64,000 bases of DNA from Rhyzopertha dominica (taxonomy: Eukaryota > Arthropoda > Insecta > Coleoptera > Bostrichidae), in assembly GCA_025024175.1 (NCBI GenBank), contig QCXZ01000137.1, positions 64,940,911-65,004,910 on the forward strand. Reading direction: 5' to 3'. Below, piece by piece: positions 913 to 50,704 of this stretch (its first letter is position 1; the number at the start of each line of letters is the position of its first letter). The position numbers and the translations under genes were made by a program. The notes beneath the pieces are model-generated. The model ran no database searches and had not been told where the DNA came from. It was given only the letters and a program-made list of their open reading frames with translations.

Positions 913-1131
913 TATTTCGCGCTGCGAACAGAATTCCTTCATTGCATCGAAAATTGTGATTTCAATCAGTAGAAGGAGGAATCCAAAGTACATCCTAGAC
1001 ATCAGGGAACAAACAACCAGGCTCAAGGCAAGTGCACTTTTCTGTTTCTACCTCTCAGTTAAACGACTCTTTCGCGATCGTGTTTTCGTGCTTATTACTA
1101 TTTTCTTTCTTTCATTTTTTTTGCAATCACT

Positions 1132-1980
1132 ATGTCTACCGCGACAACCTCAACTTCTGTTGCTTCAGTTGGCAGTACAAATGCCACCGAACAAAATTAT
1201 GACACTTATAATTTGCCGTTCCTTCAAAGCCTTATACCGGCCACGTTCGATGGTAATCGATTAGAAATCCACAAATTTATCAGCAATTGCGAACAAGCAA
1301 TTGGTTTGGCTACCACCGAGCAGAAACCAGATCTGCTCTCTTTCATCACTTCGCGATTATCTGGTAGTGCGTTCGCACAGCTGCGCGACAAGTCTTTTAG
1401 GACTTGGGATGAATTGAAAAACAACTTGCTCACTCTTTTTTCTGATCAAAATACTGTACAGCTGATGGAAGAGTTAAACAACACACGACAAAACTTTAAT
1501 GAATCCATCATGGATTTCTATAATCGAATAGATCACCTACAAACCCGATTACTAAATTCAATAACTGTACCTACTGAAATTGAACGTTTAGGCGCGACTT
1601 ATATGATAAAACAGTTAGCGTTACAACGCTTCATCTATCATTCTAATTCTTCTATTTCAATGTGTTTGCGCACGATAAAACCTCTCACACTTTGGGAGGC
1701 ATTAAATACTGCCATATATGAGGAACGTGCTGTCCGAATTTCATCGACTTCTTCAAAACCAACACAGTCACACATACCCCCTAAGTCAAGCCCCGTCAAA
1801 GTATGTCGTTATTGTAAAAATAAAGGACATACTATTGAAGAATGCCGCAAACGGCAGTACAATAATAACAGAAGACAACAACAAGCTGGTCAGGTAAACA
1901 ATACACCTGAGGAGCAAAATTTTCCCGAAACCTCCGACGAACGCCCACGACTTCCGGTGGTCTCGTCGGAGTGGCAATAA
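1132..1980 (+). CDS. Gag-like protein of the LTR element
   Basis: This is an open frame of 282 residues, the longest in the window. It begins about 220 bp after the 5' LTR, as expected for gag. An N-terminal capsid-like region (about residues 20-200) is rich in helices and has the fold-typical stretch around TWDELKNNL and the later FNESIMDFYNRI. A single zinc knuckle of Cx2Cx4Hx4C type lies near residues 223-236 (CRYCKNKGHTIEEC), followed by a basic, glutamine-rich tail. In Ty3/gypsy elements this protein forms the particle and binds genomic RNA. The start was chosen as the first in-frame ATG before the serine/threonine-rich leader. The frame is intact although the rest of the element is broken. 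The pol frame would need a frameshift near the stop. Confidence 0.8.
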   Translation: MSTATTSTSVASVGSTNATEQNYDTYNLPFLQSLIPATFDGNRLEIHKFISNCEQAIGLATTEQKPDLLSFITSRLSGSAFAQLRDKSFRTWDELKNNLLTLFSDQNTVQLMEELNNTRQNFNESIMDFYNRIDHLQTRLLNSITVPTEIERLGATYMIKQLALQRFIYHSNSSISMCLRTIKPLTLWEALNTAIYEERAVRISSTSSKPTQSHIPPKSSPVKVCRYCKNKGHTIEECRKRQYNNNRRQQQAGQVNNTPEEQNFPETSDERPRLPVVSSEWQ

Positions 1981-2191
1981 ATAATCCTTTACAAATTACT
2001 GGATCAAGCACAACCACATATAACAAATGTCGAGGCGATCTGACAATTAATCTACAAAATCGTTATTATACAATTCCTACTGTAACCACTAAATCTACTA
2101 TATCGTGCAAAATTCCCTCTGCAATATCTCAATTCTGTAACTACTAAATCTACTATAGCGGGCAAAATTCCCTCTGTGTCATAAATGGCAA
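1981..2191 (+). pseudogene. Gag-pol junction remnant
   Basis: After the gag stop, a different frame continues with protein-like composition for about 45 codons and is then closed by stops. A partial local duplication is visible: the block AAATCTACTATA...GGCAAAATTCCCTCTG occurs at about 2090-2122 and again at about 2143-2179. This is the expected position of the start of the protease. No motif is recognisable in this stretch itself. Confidence 0.4.
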
Positions 2192-2342
2192 ATGCTAAAT
2201 CCAAATATCTCTAAATCTACTAAATCTATTACTAAATCGATAACGTATTTTCCTATTTGTTTTAAAACAGAAAAACACTGCGAATTACAAATTTATTTAC
2301 AAAATCATCGTTTCAATTTTCTTATCGACACAGGTGTATCCC
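2192..2342 (+). pseudogene. Retropepsin (protease) fragment
   Basis: The frame contains FNFLIDTG, the active-site signature of retroviral-type aspartic proteases, with the catalytic Asp at about base 2327. The segment ends only a few residues after DTG, where the protein changes abruptly to reverse-transcriptase thumb sequence. The flap region of the protease and nearly all of reverse transcriptase are therefore deleted at about 2342. The break is in frame, so the open frame runs across it. Confidence 0.7.
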
Positions 2343-2792
2343 CCAACCCTGAGAAAGTAATAGTAAGTAAATATCCGACTCCTAAAACACCTAAGTATGT
2401 AAAACAATTTTTAGGCCAATTTCGCCCATCACGTCAAACCTCTTACTCAATTGCTAAAGAAAGACACGAAATTCATTTGGAACGAAGAACAAAAAGAAAG
2501 CTTTTCAATATTTTTAAAATGCGGTAGCTTCTGCCCCTTTATTACAATTTCCCGATTTTTCAAAGATTTTATATTAACTACGGAAAGTTCACAACATGCT
2601 ATAAGCGCAATTTTATCTCGATGAAAAGTTGGAAGCGATCTTCCGCTAGTCGTACGCTTAACCCAGCTGAAACTCGCTACTCCGTCATTGAACAAGAACT
2701 GCTGGCAATTATATGGGTAACTGAACACTTTCGATCATATCTTTATGGCAGAAAATTTATTATTTATACTGACCATTCTAAACTATTGCGGC
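2343..2792 (+). pseudogene. Reverse transcriptase thumb and RNase H fragment (N-terminal part)
   Basis: The first part (about 2343-2460) matches the end of gypsy-type reverse transcriptase, with the NPEKV...PTPKT and FLGQF-like motifs. After a frame change, 2524-2792 matches RNase H: an ILTT-SSQHAI block, then RYSVIEQELLAIIW and YGRKFIIYTDHSKL. TDHSKL carries the conserved third-acidic-residue region. A TGA near 2621 interrupts the frame. Homology stops abruptly at about 2792 and resumes on the opposite strand near 3995, which marks an inversion breakpoint. Confidence 0.75.
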
Positions 2793-2799
2793 GATCAGT

Positions 2800-3455
2800 T
2801 GTAGTTTTGACAAATTTATTGAAAGTAGCGATATCATGTTTTAATCATGTTTCGTTCTGATTAAGAAATGTGGCGGACTTATTATAATCGGTTACAGCGT
2901 CAGCTAAGATGTGGACTTGTTGTTTTAAAATGACTTTAATGTTATGATTTTGGTATTCTAAAGCATGGATCGCGTCCGTATAATATTTAGCATCTTGGCT
3001 GTCTGGGGTACCGAAGAGCCATTTGAAAGGGTAAGAGACTCCGTCCATTAAACCTAGGCGAACCCGTAATCGTAAATCTACTGTTTGATGTCCGATTATG
3101 TCACATATGGCTTCGAATCTTTCATGTAATAGTACTAACCTCATTTTGATATTGAGCAATTGTTTAGGGCAGCGTGGAACAAATCCAGAGGCGTTTATCA
3201 TAAAGGGAGGAGTACTTGTGCAATAGGTTACACCTTTAAGATACATTTCTTGTAACAGACAAAGCTCATTTTCGTAAATTCCAATATTGGAAAAGGAAAC
3301 TAGCGTGTAATAATTGTCTGAAATGCGTACAGTACCAAGTTCTTGATAGAACAGTCCATTGGTATTATTAAGAGGTTAGCTATTGTAAGGTAGAGTATTG
3401 ATATAAAGGAGAAAGATAGGAAAAAGAGCAAAGTAAGCATAGTATGCATCTGAAA
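2800..3455 (-). pseudogene. Envelope-like protein, N-terminal half (inverted)
   Basis: On the minus strand a hydrophobic leader near 3455-3380, probably a signal peptide, is followed after frame changes by a 133-residue open stretch (3246-2845). That stretch includes GLMDGVSYPFKWLFG, typical of the fusion-peptide region of errantivirus/baculovirus-F type envelope proteins, and a downstream heptad-like region. A TGA ends the frame at 2845, but homologous-looking residues continue to the inversion breakpoint. In the family this protein is a class I fusion glycoprotein; this copy is non-functional. Confidence 0.65.
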
Positions 3456-3643
3456 GTTTCTAAGTTAGTAGGATTTTGAGTATAAATTTTCGTGATGTTT
3501 TCGGATTGCGATTTTGTCCTTAGATTTTACAGTGAGTAAAATAGATCTTGATAAGTTCATTTGTCGAAATGGTTTAATTTTGTTATCGCTAAAAATGTCT
3601 TTTTTGTTTCTGCCGTCAAAGTTTATACATCATAATGATTTAT

Positions 3644-3995
3644 CTAAGTATCAATAGTTTGTAAGTCATAAGTGGCGGATAAATTTTGATAATATGGGTT
3701 TGATTCATCTAAGTCTCTAGAAAAGAATAGAACATTAGGAAATTTTGATAAGGTATTTTCTCTTATTGTTTCAAATTTGATTACTTCGTTGTTCTCATGA
3801 TGGAATTTAACAAATTGTTGATATGTTTCTTCGGCATGTTTAGTGAATGATATGGAAACCGGATTACGTGACAAAGCATCGACATTAGAATTTACTCGAC
3901 CTGCTTTATAATGGATTTCGTAAGAAAATTCTTGGAGTTTTAATCTCCATCCGACTAAGCGACTTTGGGGTTTTTTGTAATTGAATAACCAGGTT
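3644..3995 (-). pseudogene. RNase H C-terminal end and following linker
   Basis: Minus-strand translation begins with TWLFNYKKPQSRL-like residues and continues through a YEIHYKAGRVNSNVDALSRN block, the canonical end of gypsy-type RNase H. About 70 more residues of linker follow, then a stop at 3644. It is the continuation of the fragment at 2524-2792. The integrase expected next is absent; only about 200 bp separates this from the env start. Confidence 0.75.
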
Positions 3996-4003
3996 TGTAC
4001 AAG

Positions 4004-5235
4004 AACACTTCCATCAGCTGAAAGACATGATGATCGAATTAGAGGAAGAGCTAGATTTTACCATCTTCTTTATTCTTTTTTCAAAAAACAATGTGTTACA
4101 TCCCTCTGTCGTCGCTCTTCGTGCGTTTCGCCAAGAACGTTTACGAATTCAAACAGGTCCAAATTTTGAATTACCTATTGATCCAACAAATTATAACAAT
4201 ATTTACATGTACACGTCACTTTGTTCCTTATCAACCATTTATTACAAATGAGTATTGCTATACGCGATCAAAATTCCGTTGGTTACGAAAGAGTTGTTTC
4301 AACTTTACCATCTCATACCTCTCCCAACTCAAGTTCCAAATACTACAATCTATTCCTATATCGATCCTCTGTTTCCTTATCTACTCCCAAGCACTCGCCT
4401 GAACTATGGCCAATTGCAAGTCCTTAACACCTGCTACAAGAGGGACAACCAGGGTTGCGTTAGCCGCAACGTCATCACTTACAAAACGCAAGAACGTCCC
4501 GTCTGCGAAGTCATATTACGTGTCAAGCAAGTTGGACAAATTCCATATTCCAACACCCGTACCACTACCTGGCTCTACATCACCACCAATCCAACCACTG
4601 GGACCATTAGCTGCGAAGACGCCAACAAGCCTATTGCCGACGTCCTGTTTATGGTAACAGGCATTTTCACCATGGAACCAAAGTGCAAATATTTTACTAC
4701 ATCATCAACTCTCTACGCCACTACCAATTAAACTGGGAATATCAGCCATTACATCCCAACTACGAACATCATCGATGACGAATGCTGCATCCAACGTCAA
4801 AATTACCTCAAGATTGAAGAAATGAAACCCATTCATTTAACTGGCGTCACTTTCGATCAGCTACGCCATTTTCAAAGTAAACTCTATGAACTCGACGAAG
4901 TTATTCAAAACAACATTAATCGTCCATTCATCATTCCTAAATCCTAAAAACATTGCAGTTGGTACTCTTACGACGATATCAGCCCTTCTTCTGACGTTGG
5001 TGTCGATGGAGGCCACTACGATGGATCAGACAAATCTGCAGTACCAGCGATTGCCAAAGATACGCCGTCTACACCAACACTATCCACGGCCGGGATTCCG
5101 TACACCGAGGAAGCTGTGACGGCATTGGTATGGTACAGGTCCAAGCCAGGGAGGTGTATGTTCATAATGCAGTCCATTTCTTTGCCATGTTTTCTATTTC
5201 CACTATGTCTATTCAAAATTGCTATGTCTACTTAT
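4004..5235 (+). pseudogene. Envelope-like protein, C-terminal half
   Basis: Homology resumes on the plus strand at about 4004 with a charged helical segment (KDMMIELEEELDF). It continues in a long open frame (4255-4731, 158 residues) that has env ectodomain features: paired cysteines and an EVPL-like FQLYHLIPLPTQVP block. Later pieces run to a C-terminal hydrophobic stretch near 5160-5230 that could be the membrane anchor. Frames change at about 4250, 4735 and 4945, where there is a stop. This is the missing half of the env segment on the minus strand at 2800-3455. Confidence 0.65.
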
Positions 5236-43875: not shown

Positions 43876-44220
43876 TCCTCTTCAATTTATTGCATGATTT
43901 CAGGAAGCCCAGAAAATATTTTCAAGAAGTACGGTCACATGACTTTGGTGGACTATTCTGATCACCGTTACGAGCGAATGCTCGGCCCGAGAACTTACCG
44001 AGAAACAAAATGTTTGTGTTTTTGCGGTTACCGTGATCAAGTTTTTCTATTAGGGTCTTATCGCTCTACTGATCAAAATCCACTCTACCTGTAATTCACT
44101 AGTCACCATGAATACAACCACAAGCTATGTTATAGGTAGCCATGCTCAGAGGCTGAAATTATTTTTTTCTGACAGGAAAGCAAACGATCAAACAAAGCGT
44201 GCACATTTGATGTTTCTATG
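43876..44220. other. Left flank of the foldback element
   Basis: Anonymous sequence ending in GTTTCTATG (44212-44220), the left copy of the 9-bp target duplication. A 75-codon plus frame (43867-44094) has no motif. Confidence 0.4.
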
Positions 44221-46185
44221 GGGTCCGTTAAGTTAGCTCCGCCATGTTGAGCAATTTTTTTGAAAACATTGCTCCAGATTGCCCTGAGCTAGCTCCAGCT
44301 AGCTCCACTAAAGAGAAAGCTAGCTCCACCTTACTTGAGTAGTTATAAGCTCATCATTGCGGGGGGGGCTAACTTAACGTTATCCTCGCCATGTCCTCAA
44401 ATCTGTTTCAAAAGCTAGCTCCAGCTTGCCCAGAGCTAGCTCCAGCTAGCTCCACTAAAGAGAAAGCTAGCTCCACCTTACTTGAGTAGTTATAAGCTCA
44501 TCATTGCGGGGGGGGCTAACTTAACGTTATCCTCGCCATGGCCTCAAATCTGTTTCAAAAGCTAGCTCCAGCTTGCCCAGAGCTAGCTCCAGCTAGCTCC
44601 ACTAAAGAGAAAGCTAGCTCCACCTTACTTAAGTAGTTATAAGCTCATCATTGCGGGGGGGGGCTAACTTAACGTTATCCTCGCCATGGCCTCAAATCTG
44701 TTTCAAAAGCTAGCTCCAGCTTGCCCAGAGCTAGCTCCAGCTTGCCCAGAGCTAGCTCCAGCTAGCTCCACTAAAGAGAAAGCTAGCTCCACCTTACTTG
44801 AGTAGTTATAAGCTCATCATTGCGGGGGGGGGGGCTAACTTAACGTTATCCTGGCCATGTCCTCAAATCTGTTTCAAAAGCTAGCTCCAGCTTGCCCAGA
44901 GCTAGCTCCACTAAAGAGAAAGCTAGCTCCACCTTACTTGAGTAGTTATAAGCTTATCATTGCGGGGGGGGGCTAACTTAACGTTATCCTGGCCATGTCC
45001 TCAAATCTGTTTCAAAAGCTAGCTCCAGCTTGCCCAGAGCTAGCTCCAGCTAGCTCCACTAAAGAGAAAGCTAGCTCCACCTTACTTGAGTAGTTATAAG
45101 CTCATCATTGCGGGGGGGGGGGCTAACTTAACGTTATCCTCGCCATGGCCTCAAATCTGTTTCAAAAGCTAGCTCCAGCTTGCCCAGAGCTAGCTCCACT
45201 AAAGAGAAAGCTAGCTCCACCTTACTTGAGTAGTTATAAGCTCATCATTGCGGGGGGGGGGCTAACTTAACGTTATCCTCGCCATGGCCTCAAATCTGTT
45301 TCAAAAGCTAGCTCCAGCTTGCCCAGAGCTAGCTCCAGCTAGCTCCACTAAAGAGAAAGCTAGCTCCACCTTACTTGAGTAGTTATAAGCTTATCATTGC
45401 GGGGGGGGGCTAACTTAACGTTATCCTCGCCATGGCCTCAAATCTGTTTCAAAAGCTAGCTCCAGCTTGCCCAGAGCTAGCTCCAGCTAGCTCCACTAAA
45501 GAGAAAGCTAGCTCCACCTTACTTGAGTAGTTATATGCTCATCACTGCTGGGGGGCTAACTTAACGTTATCCTCGCCATGGCCTCAAATCTGTTTCAAAA
45601 GCTAGCTCCAGCTTGCCCAGAGCTAGCTCCAGCTAGCTCCACTAAAGAGAAAGCTAGCTCCACCTTACTTGAGTAGTTATAAGCTCAACATTTCTGGGAG
45701 TGCTAACTTAACATTATCCTCGCCATGGCCTCAAATCTGTTTCAAAAGCTAGCTCCAGCTTGCCCGGAGCTAGCTCCAGCTAGCTCCACTAAAGAGAGAG
45801 CTAGCTCCACCTTACTTGAGTAGTTATAAGCTCATCATTTCTGGGAGTACTATCTTAACGTTATCCTCGCCATGGCCTCAAATCTGTTTCAAAAGCTAGC
45901 ACCAGCTTGTCCAGAGCTAGCTCCAGCTTGCCCAGAGCTAGCTCCAGCTTGCCCAGAGCTAGCTCCACTAAAGAGAAAGCTAGCTCTACCTTACTTGAGT
46001 AGTTATAAGCTCATCATTTCTGGGAGTGCTAACTTAACGTTATCCTCGCCATGGCCTCAAATGTGTTTCAAAAGCTAGCTCCAGCTTGCCCAGAGCTAGC
46101 TCCAGCTTGTCCAGAGCTAGCTCCAGCTAGCTCCACTATAGAGAAAGCTAGCTCCATCTTACTTGAGTAATTATAAGCTCATCAT
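44221..46185 (+). repeat. Left arm: tandem array of ~13 units of about 147 bp
   Basis: Each unit has a GCTAGCTCC-rich part with AGCTTGCCCAGAGCTAGCTC subrepeats, then AAAGAGAAAGCTAGCTCC, ACTTGAGTAGTTATAAGCTC, a variable G run (about 6-11), GCTAACTTAACGTTATCC and TCGCCATGGCCTCAAATCTG. Spacing between equivalent points varies (about 139-177 bp), mostly in steps of about 21 bp caused by gain or loss of the subrepeat. Units from about 45.5 kb inward lose the G run and become more diverged. Open frames inside (for example 45872-46078) are by-products of the repeat. Confidence 0.95.
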
Positions 46186-47095
46186 CTTACAAATTATTTG
46201 TGAAACATTTAAGAAACTTTCATATCCTCTATTGTTATGCAACAACTATGTACAATACTAATAGCTTACAAATTATGATTTATAGCTTACAAATTATGAC
46301 AATTAATTTTCTGATTGCTTAAAAAATGATTCAGATTGAACGAATCTGGGAAAGTCAATGCCTGGACCTTTTGAATATAGGTAATTCCATTTTGGTAACA
46401 TCTCGGGAATTTAATTTTTATTTTTTTACTTCTTTATAAATAATATGATTGTTTTCATACAATCTATAAAGAAACTCAAATTCGATAAACGTTATTTGTA
46501 CAAGGGTTTTTCGTTACCGAACAACTGTAAAGATTGCGCCATGCTTAAAACTCTGCACTTGTATGTATACAGGATAGCTGATGTTACGAAAGTATTGCGT
46601 TCATTATTTTAGTTACTACATTGAATTAAGTTTTGACTTTTGATTTCATAACGTGAATGCTATGATTAAAGCATTAAGTATTAAATTTTATGTCTGTTAA
46701 ACCTACCAATCGTATCTAAGCCCCTATCGTTTTTCTGCGATTCGGATACCTGGAACACGCCCCCCTGACTTTAACCGTTTCCGGTACAACTATTTCAACT
46801 AAGCTAAATGCTATGTACACAGTCAATTAAACACTTCGTTCATCAGAATTGTATTTTAACTCAACACAACTTAATTACAACTCATAATAATGTGATATTT
46901 TTGGCGTATTGCCACTACGCTGTTTCAATAACACTAAAAATATATTTTTGTTCTACCATTTACTCATGTTTGTCCGTTACTTTGGAAATTGCAAATGTAG
47001 ATGATCTGCAGGCCTATAAAAATTATTACTATTATTATAATATGATATAAAGCTGAGACCTACCACACGGATTTAGCTTCTCATATCGACACGAC
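46186..47095. other. Unique core of the foldback element
   Basis: About 0.9 kb of AT-rich sequence without array units. A 20-bp direct duplication (ATAGCTTACAAATTATGA twice) lies at about 46261-46300. An 80-codon frame (46808-47050) has no motif. No transposase or other gene is present. Confidence 0.7.
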
Positions 47096-48512
47096 AAAAT
47101 TGTGGGGCTAACTGTCATAATATTTTTTCTGAACGTAGCTGAATGTAGCTAGCTTTTTAAGAACGGAGCTAACTGAAGACAGCCCCAAATGATGTGGAGC
47201 TATTTTTTCAGATCGACCGATCAAAATGGCGGAGCTAAATCTTCTTTTCCTGAAAATTATGGAAATTGGGATGGAGCTAACTTTGTCTAGAGCGGAGCTA
47301 GCTAGAGCTAGCCCTGGGCTACCTGGAGCTAGGTTTTGAAACAGTGGCGAGGATAGCGTTAAGTTAGCACCCTCCTAAGTGATGAGCTTATACTACTCAA
47401 GTGAGGTGGAGCTGGCTTTCTCTATAGTGGAGCTAGGTTTTAAAACAGATTTGAAACAGTGGCGAGGATAGCGTTAAGTGAGCACCCCCCGAAATGATGA
47501 GCTTATAATTACTTAAGTAAGATGGAGCTAGCTTTCTCTATAGTGGAGCTAGCTGGAGCTAGCTCTGGGCAAGCAGGAGCTAGGTTTTGAAACTGATTTG
47601 ACACAGTGACGAGGATGGCGTTAAGTTAGCACCCCCGAAATGATGAGGTTATAACTATTCAAGTAAGGTGGAGCTAGCTTTCTCTTTAGTGGAGCTAGCT
47701 GGAGCTAGCTCTGGGCAAGCTGGAGCTAGCTTTTGAAACACATTTGAGGCCATGGCGAGGATAACGTTAAGTTAGCACTCCCAGAAATGATGAGCTTATA
47801 ACTACTCAGGTAAGGTGGAGCTAGCTTTCTCTTAAGCGGAGCTAGCTGGAGCTAGCTCTGGGCAAGCTGGAGCTAGGTTTTGAAACAGATTTGAGGCCAT
47901 GGCGAGGATAACGTTAAGTTAGCACCCCCAGCAATGATGAGCTTATAACTACTCAAGTAAGGTGGAGCTAGCTTTCTCTTTAGTGGAGCTAGCTGGAGCT
48001 AGCTCTGGGCAAGCTGGAGCTAGCTTTTGAAACAGATTTGAGGCCATGGCGAGGATAACGTTAAGTTAGCCCCCCCCCGCAATGATGAGCTTATAACTAC
48101 TCACGTAAGGTGGAGCTAGCTTTCTCTTTAGTGGAGCTAGCTGGAGCTAGCTCTGGGCAAGCTGGAGCTAGCTTTTGAAACAGATTTGAGGCCATGGCGA
48201 GGATAACGTTAAGTTAGCCCCCCCCGCAATGATGAGCTTATAACTATTCAAGTAAGGTGGAGCTAGCTTTCTCTTTAGTGGAGCTAGCTGGAGCTAGCTC
48301 TGGGCAAGCTGGAGCTAGCTTTTGAAACAGATTTGAGGACATGGCGGGGATAACGTTAAGTTAGCCCCCCCCGCAATGATGAGCTTATAACTACTCAAGT
48401 AAGGTGGAGCTAGCTTTCTCTTTAGTGGAGCTAGCTGGAGCTAGCTCAGGGCAATCTGGAGCAATGTTTTCAAAAAAATTGCTCAACATGGCGGAGCTAA
48501 CTTAACGGACCC
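47096..48512 (-). repeat. Right arm: inverted tandem array of ~8 units
   Basis: Reverse complement of the left-arm units (GGAGCTAGCT, GAGGCCATGGCGAGGATAAC and CGTTAAGTTAGC). The outer units are close to the consensus. The inner part (about 47096-47340) is heavily diverged, with scattered GGAGCTAAC motifs. C runs here correspond to the G runs on the left. The arm is about 0.55 kb shorter than the left arm. Confidence 0.93.
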
Positions 48513-49279
48513 GTTTCTATGGGGCTGAAATAGAAAGTGTTAACAGTAAGTAGTATTATAGTGACCCTAGTATGTAAAAATATCGATGTTAACCTCGGTA
48601 AAATTGTGAACTTATTAAAAAACCAGGCACAGCTGCAGAAGCAGAATTAGGCTCTGCACACTGGCATCGGCGACTGCAATGGTCGGACTAGGACTGTAAA
48701 TGGACATTGGACAAAAGATAAAGTACCATGGATATAGTCAAGAGTGAAGTTATAGTATCAAGCAACGATCCAAGAGACTGACTTATGCAGAGGGTTTTAC
48801 AGCTTGATGGTCGGCCGTCGTAAACTATTGTATTGTAAATGAGGGTTTTTACAACCTTATGGTCGGCCGTCCTAAACTATTGGGATTAGTGGCACTCTTC
48901 AAAGTTCCTAAATGGGCCGTACTCAAAAAAATCTTGTTGGCTAAAATTTTATCTTTTGGGCTATAAATTTTTGAAATTTGTTAGTTGTGATAATTTAGCA
49001 ATCAATAAAACGTAGAAGCTTTTATGACAAATTTTATTTAATGCATCATTTTTATATGATACTTTATTGGGTTTAAATTTTCCGATGTATAAAATAAAAG
49101 CCTTTGCATGTCGTAACGAATTTATACAAATTTAATATAAAAACATACAAATTAGTAAGTAAAAAATTATTTACATTTGTTAGAAAAAATTTACAATAGT
49201 GCAGAATAAAATTTAACACGGTATCGATTATGTTCATTACAGCTTGTTAATAAGCACATGACAAGAGTCACAAACTAAA
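48513..49279. other. Right flank of the foldback element and edge of the next element
   Basis: It starts with the second GTTTCTATG. At 48790-48881 a 51-bp unit, GAGGGTTTTACAGCTTGATG and onward with GGTCGGCCGTC, is present twice in tandem. The tandem pair may belong to the end of the transposon whose transposase begins at 49280. The rest is AT-rich. Confidence 0.45.
48790..48881 (+). repeat. Tandem duplication, 51-bp period
   Basis: Two units starting at 48790 and 48841 share GAGGGTTTT, ATGGTCGGCCGTC and TAAACTATTG with a few substitutions. Confidence 0.85.
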
Positions 49280-50704
49280 AAAAATACTCACTATCACTTT
49301 CACTGCTAAAATCACAATTAACTTCTATTATTAATTCTTGTACATGATTATCTCTGTACCGATTTTCAATGTCCAGTACATGCCGCACTGAATTTCTCCA
49401 TGCATCGACACTTGTTATTTCAGCTTCGTGCCTAATATTTAGCAGCATTTCATTGCTAAATTTTCAACCGGTGTTCCCTCGTCTTTGTTTCAACTGCCCC
49501 CATATCACTCCAATGGGGTTGAAAATGCAATGATATGGGGATAATCGTAGAATGGTGTATCCGCATTCAGAAGCGAGAATGTCAATTTTCAATTTCTACG
49601 AAAAATTTTTTGTGTCAAGCACTTCCAACAATTGTTTTTTTTTGTATAGTCCTCTTCGAAATATAAATTTTCTTTTCTTAAAAACTCTTGAATGGTTGCC
49701 TTATTAGTTGTTGTATTTGGAATTTTATCCAGTTGCTCCGAATGGTAACTAGCGTTGTCCATTACTATGACGCTGTTTGGTGGAAATTTGGACAATAAAA
49801 TGATTTTTGAACCAATTTTCAAACACTTCCGCATTCAGAATGATAATCGGCGCTTGCTTCTTTTAGGTTTTTACATGCAAGATACAAGGTTCCAGGAACG
49901 AAACCATTTTCACCTCCTGCGTGTAGAATCATTATTCTTTTTCCTCATGACGCCGGAATATTGACGTTGCACTTCCCTGAGTCATTAACCCATCCTTTTT
50001 TATTGTATCATGGGTATCGTACCATGTTTCATCGAGGAAAAATGTCGGACGATTTTCCTGCCTATACATTTATATAAATTTTAAATAATCGTATCTCTAC
50101 TTTCTTATTACCTGGCTTTCCATTATGCATTCCTTCTTCTCCACCTTTTTCATTGAAAAGCCAATGGTTTTAACATACTTTTGCAGGGTATGCTCAAAGC
50201 AGTCGATCATATTATCATTTTTCAATTTTTTATATAACACGGTGATTGTTGGAATAACATTATTCTTGTACATTTCATAAATGTTTCTTATAATACGATC
50301 CACGTGAGTTGCAGTAAATTTTTTAAAATTGCCTTTTCGGATCTTATCTTTCTCTATGAAGGCCCGGATTTAACAATTCTCCAGATGGTTGATCGTAGAG
50401 TTCCAGTCACTTCTGCCGTTTTATCTAAAGATTGCTTCGCGCCATAACATTCAATTTTGTTGTATAGTTTTATAATGAAACATTTTTTGTCAAACGATAA
50501 AAATTTACGCTTCCGTTTCATTGGTTGATCAGTTACAGCCTCGAGTACAGCTTCTGCTTCTTCTTGATCCGGCAAAGGCGGGACGTCTTCAGCGTTGACA
50601 GGATCCAGGTTTGTTTCACTTTTCCAAGGTCTCCACATATTGGAACTGTTAAGTAAAAATAAATTGTATTCCATAAAATTAAAAAAAAAATACAGTACTT
50701 ACCA
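49280..50704 (-). pseudogene. IS630/Tc1-type transposase pseudogene with introns
   Basis: The minus strand encodes a nearly full-length DDE transposase. At 50655-50354 is an acidic N-terminus and a helix-turn-helix (ECYGAKQSLDKTAEVTG...STIWRIVKSG). Next come a second helical domain (50303-50097), PTFFLDETWYDTHDT (first Asp), KRIMILHAGGENGFVPG, and SVIVMDNASYHS (second Asp). The C-terminal part ends ELIIEVNCDFSS near 49290. The third acidic residue, expected as Glu in FNPIE, reads Gly (FNPIGVIW, near 49510). A GTAAGT...TTAACAG intron precedes the start, and a ~50-bp GTAATAAG...TGTATAG intron interrupts the middle. Frameshifts near 50350 and a stop near 49950 complete the inactivation. Confidence 0.8.

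Follow-up and report, generated by a model that had tools for sequence, protein, structure and literature searches.

The window analysed here is a 64,000-nucleotide stretch of the Rhyzopertha dominica assembly (C136:64940911-65004910). It contains a 4,292-bp element at 44221-48512, flanked by exact 9-bp target-site duplications. As an earlier sequence-only reading had stated, the duplicated 9-mer, GTTTCTATG, lies on the left (44212-44220) and on the right (48513-48521) of the element. It occurs nowhere else in the window. The perfect inverted ends that it described were also recovered: GGGTCCGTTAAG at 44221 and its reverse complement at 48501 are each found once in the window, no mismatch separates the two arms over their first 165 bp, and complementarity is 99% over the outer 525 nt. 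Both arms have a period of 147 according to Tandem Repeats Finder. The left arm (+ strand) starts with a 148-bp terminal unit (44221-44368), which carries the outer end GGGTCCGTTAAG and is a diverged copy of the 147-bp unit, followed by an array of 12 internal units (44369-46190) delimited by repeat finding and unit anchors. The 12 unit anchors and the variant terminal unit bring this arm to 13 units with lengths of 138-179 bp, of which 8 measure 146-150 bp. A unique core of about 0.9 kb follows (46184-47100, + strand), which in the window copy is devoid of any long frame. The right arm (- strand, inverted orientation) has 8 anchors and a terminal unit. From the core outwards, it consists of one or more degenerate units (47100-47367, delimited by arm comparison and unit anchors), an array of 7 internal units, one of which is only 115 bp long (47368-48364, repeat finding and unit anchors), and the terminal unit (48365-48512), an inverted copy of 44221-44368. 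The first count of about 13 units and about 8 inverted units of 147 bp around a 0.9-kb core is thus correct, except that a ninth right-hand "unit" (47100-47367) is degenerate.

The terminal unit is a diverged satellite-like unit: it aligns with the 147-bp unit with a score of 26, the maximum being 13 in 1000 mononucleotide shuffles. A decamer, AGCTAGCTCC, recurs in the left arm (50 forward, 1 reverse) and in the right arm (26 forward, 0 reverse). A left-arm unit holds 3-5 decamers and a right-arm unit mostly 3-4, with fewer in the innermost part, and their spacing inside units is 10 or 21 bp, i.e. one or two helical turns. This decamer is absent from the window outside the arms and from all 500 sequences obtained by mononucleotide shuffling of the left arm. 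By analogy with Galileo, in which THAP-domain sites are described within the arm repeats (PMC3688188), these decamers may be candidate binding sites for the transposase or for an accessory protein. The outer units (44221-45409 and 48070-48512) also contain ~8-11 G runs of varying length (C in the right arm), present as degenerate versions in the inner units.

We searched the insect's own assembly (479,159,283 bp, 138 contigs) with the outer 201 bp of the element as query. Of 321 candidate places, 40 were scored, which makes the copy counts lower bounds, and a query that contains the end picks up too few truncated copies. The 40 scored ends correspond to at least 27 elements on 9 contigs. All 27 possess both ends, and 25 of them (22 out of 24, plus L044, L045 and a 15.4-kb coding element) are flanked by an exact 9-bp duplication, which supports a mobile element. 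The satellite travels with the element. In a chance control with 552 mismatched pairings of left and right 9-mers, agreement was seen in one (L016/L017, which have a common duplicated flank). No strict consensus was found among the 9-bp target duplications of the copies. In 22 of 24 copies, both ends agree with the window copy at no fewer than 138 of the first 140 positions (ungapped count); by this count, L016 and L017 have a lower identity.

Two elements are exceptions to the 9-bp rule. The right flank of L016 is the same as that of L017, inside a 9.9-kb segment duplicated at 98.5%. In L027 no target duplication is visible, as about 500 bp of one flank recur in inverted form in the other. 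At L016/L017 (C137:4909300-4968899), the 9.9-kb segment starts exactly at the left end of the element and its duplicate lies about 24.7 kb away; on its other side, L016 abuts the host repeat in which L011 is inserted, with a junction no more than 1 bp from the L011 site. At L027 (C86:10579950-10586000, with L031/L032), the inverted match between the two host flanks comprises 392 bp at 99.7% and 112 bp at 97%, which points to an inverted duplication of host DNA linked to the foldback structure.

To look for empty sites, we joined the flanks of 26 elements around one copy of the duplication, took the left flank alone for L025, and matched these sequences against the window and all fetched loci. 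One joined flank matched over more than 80 bp across the junction, that of the sibling L011 (duplication ACGTAGATG), which is inserted in a host repeat. The corresponding empty site (C137:4930692-4930971) is an uninterrupted paralogous copy of this repeat, 88.6% identical, with a single ACGTAGATG and a 19-bp difference about 60 bp past the junction. The proposed empty-site check therefore succeeded for this sibling only, and no empty site of the window copy was found among the fetched loci. Among 21 loci (the window and L011-L030), 15 have the complete 911-bp core (99.1-100%); 5 others have partial cores (98.8-99.4% similar) and L021 has none. Between the 15 full cores (105 pairs, gaps excluded), the median difference is 0.11% and the maximum 0.99%, 39 pairs being identical. 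With such a low median, the family is young and is not an assembly artefact: it was recently active and is caught soon after its amplification. Inverted satellite arrays misassemble easily, and an immobile satellite palindrome or a misassembly was considered as a rival explanation of this structure. Nevertheless, 27 elements on 9 contigs, 25 of them with exact 9-bp duplications, their unlike flanks and one empty site contradict this explanation, unless every copy is an assembly error, and its probability is negligible.

All units of 24 copies were typed by sequence, with G runs collapsed. The usual order of the left arm is 0-1-2-3-20(or 4)-5-6-24-25-26-27-9-10-11. Relative to this common order, the window copy is two units short, L011 and L026 are short of more units, and L030 has two additional ones. 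Whole units are thus lost and gained within the arms. The left arm of L028 has the order 0-12-13-26-27-9-10-11, and types 12 and 13 are otherwise found exclusively in right arms of this subfamily. The tip of one arm therefore bears the markers of the opposite arm. We infer that repair, or a template switch from one inverted arm to the other, caused this exchange, which was seen in one copy.

What has been amplified is a derivative of 1.8-5.9 kb that lacks long frames. A 15,381-bp element (L025, C136:44065585-44080965, target duplication CAACTATAG) shares ends, arms and core with the window copy; it had appeared one-ended until the following 9.9 kb revealed its second end. Its inverted repeat measures 2.27 kb (97%), window 46184-48512 corresponds to its end region with a 97.5% match, and the window core is its subterminal part (98.9-99.3% match). 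Judging from these matches, the window copy resembles a single end of the coding element with a second arm added. In L022, L024 and L045, two cores lie head to head, and L022, L024 and L042 map onto the end region of the coding element with an inversion point near 2213/2263, a pattern that would be expected of internal deletion derivatives.

The first frame of the coding element (ORF1) has 711 aa from the first Met, without any stop and with two unread residues. A second stop-free ORF1, 99% identical, is located at C41:31613470-31615602 with a truncated left arm. The top match of the predicted fold of ORF1 is the ISCth4 transposase, and the P element transposase is also among the structural matches. 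As we take ISCth4 to be an IS256-type enzyme, ORF1 would be MULE-like. This coding relative with identical ends agrees with the initial view of an FB-like, Mutator-type, non-autonomous element, and the window copy is non-autonomous. The second frame (ORF2, 398 aa) has a predicted ubiquitin-specific-protease (USP) fold, with Cys149 as the predicted catalytic residue, and a Cys-rich stretch (residues 27-68). In five homologues, the transposase and USP-like parts are fused in one protein. Neither ORF1 nor ORF2 gave a PHD or a THAP match in Pfam. The 15.4-kb element also contains a nested element (L046:4359-5315) with a DDE_3 protein frame preceded by a second frame, with a stop between them, which is presumably mariner-like. 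In addition, 809-aa open frames that are 38% identical to ORF1 were found with near-equal scores at three places (G000 C136:69929428, C41:44614895 and C1:18130445); they possibly represent a further young family within this group.

Among named groups, Rehavkus, a sister group of the MULEs, most likely comes nearest, a fit that concerns the anatomy as described and not the proteins. The window family has both the 9-bp target-site duplication (25 of the 27 two-ended elements) and the satellite or minisatellite in inverted ends (147-bp units in both arms) that characterize this group. In the available text of PMC6446971 (2019), Rehavkus elements are described with 9-bp duplications, a minisatellite, a MULE-related DDE enzyme and arthropod (also annelid) hosts, the type of enzyme and of host being probable likenesses to our family; their known members are few and come from Repbase descriptions only. 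This text describes one ORF with a PHD finger, inverted ends of 26-400 bp and a minisatellite before the 3' end, whereas here the arrays are in both arms, the ends of the coding element measure about 2.3 kb and the USP-like protein is a separate ORF. The words "ubiquitin" and "protease" have 0 occurrences in the same text, and the USP domain is unmentioned in the other Rehavkus descriptions compared, as far as these were available. The closest description is that of Rehavkus-1_TC in Tribolium castaneum, which has the 164-bp satellite TCsat23 in its inverted termini, in arrays of mostly 5 and 8 monomers (PMC10218199, available text). Both elements are DNA transposons with short arrays of a similar-sized satellite unit in inverted ends, and since the anatomy is the same, this kind of element is already known. 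Compared by description, Rehavkus-1_TC is a 9.5-kb element with copies about 95% identical (PMC10218199), in contrast with the shorter amplified derivative found here, the very similar cores of 15 copies and the 15.4-kb coding form.

Other foldback elements resemble this family. Its tandem-unit arms between inverted ends and its 9-bp duplication are traits of the Drosophila FB elements. FB repeats are 10, 20 or 31 bp long, and FB-NOF carries a coding insert between its arms, with a 9-bp duplication. Repetitive inverted arms and frequent rearrangement are described for FB/FB4 and FB-NOF (PMC8277862, available text). Tetris of Drosophila virilis likewise has the foldback form and is non-autonomous; its inverted ends contain tandem units of ~220 bp, and its duplications measure 8-10 bp. 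The available text of PMC4079207 reports only three structurally complete copies and longer satellite-like arrays in this species, and no transposase found.

The sequence-only reading expected a MULE/Phantom relative. A coding element with the same ends does exist, but no MULE/Phantom profile match assigns it to Phantom, and Rehavkus suits the anatomy better. That the family is a Phantom- or Muta-type MULE with FB-like arms is thus rather unlikely. Such elements can combine composite tandem-repeat inverted ends with 9-bp duplications (8-10 bp in Tm1 and Muta1) and have transposase-encoding and non-autonomous members within one genome, according to the available text of PMC3169594 and PMC5225508, and the fold of ORF1 is nearest to ISCth4. 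However, the arms of Muta1, Muta5 and Tm1 (the last of the Phantom subclass, with MULE transposases as in Muta1) are described as made of 12-15 bp repeats (PMC3169594, PMC5225508), against ~147 bp here. In addition, the MULE profile (Pfam PF10551, which includes Phantom) and FLYWCH have no match in ORF1, nor in 10 of the 13 homologues scanned.

A Galileo-like foldback element of the P superfamily is considerably less probable still. Elements of this superfamily generate duplications of 7-8 bp, and the family has 9 bp in 25 of 27 elements and lacks a THAP match. In favour of this assignment, the arms of Galileo are also long and repetitive with several transposase-binding sites (PMC3688188, available text), and the P element transposase is one of the structural matches of ORF1.

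We therefore consider it very probable that the window holds a recent insertion of a non-autonomous foldback DNA transposon of the cut-and-paste type, which most likely belongs to the Rehavkus (MULE-sister) lineage and whose transposase is presumably supplied in trans by the 15.4-kb relative. The DDE transposase of this relative would bind the ends of the element, excise it and reinsert it with a 9-bp stagger; we infer that this enzyme moves the window copy. The USP-like protein might protect the transposition proteins. More tentatively, and this extended scheme is more doubtful than probable, the arms would consist of binding sites in helically phased arrays, would gain or lose whole units, and would have their tips re-copied from the opposite arm, so that the ends stay near-invariant as the inner array drifts; an autonomous element would carry a USP-type deubiquitinase beside or fused to its Rehavkus-like transposase, perhaps protecting the transposition complex from degradation. 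The MULE-like transposase with a USP fold, fused in five relatives, at least provides a testable idea on how a transposon handles host protein turnover. One genome thus offers the ends, duplications, empty site, coding partner and arm variants of a satellite-armed foldback family, whose marked units make unit loss, unit gain and arm-to-arm copying countable. The coding element probably adds to Rehavkus, a group with few known members (PMC6446971, 2019, available text).

Two further observations concern the window outside the element. A 114-aa open frame without Pfam match (50354-50698, - strand) has a helix-turn-helix-like stretch by eye and the look of a transposon protein. At 1063-4731, the pieces of a degraded retroelement comprise a gag protein (PF03732) and fragments of a baculovirus-F-type envelope (PF12259, with one of two hits below cut-off). 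These pieces resemble insect errantivirus-like elements, and the gag and envelope fragments suggest an insect host.
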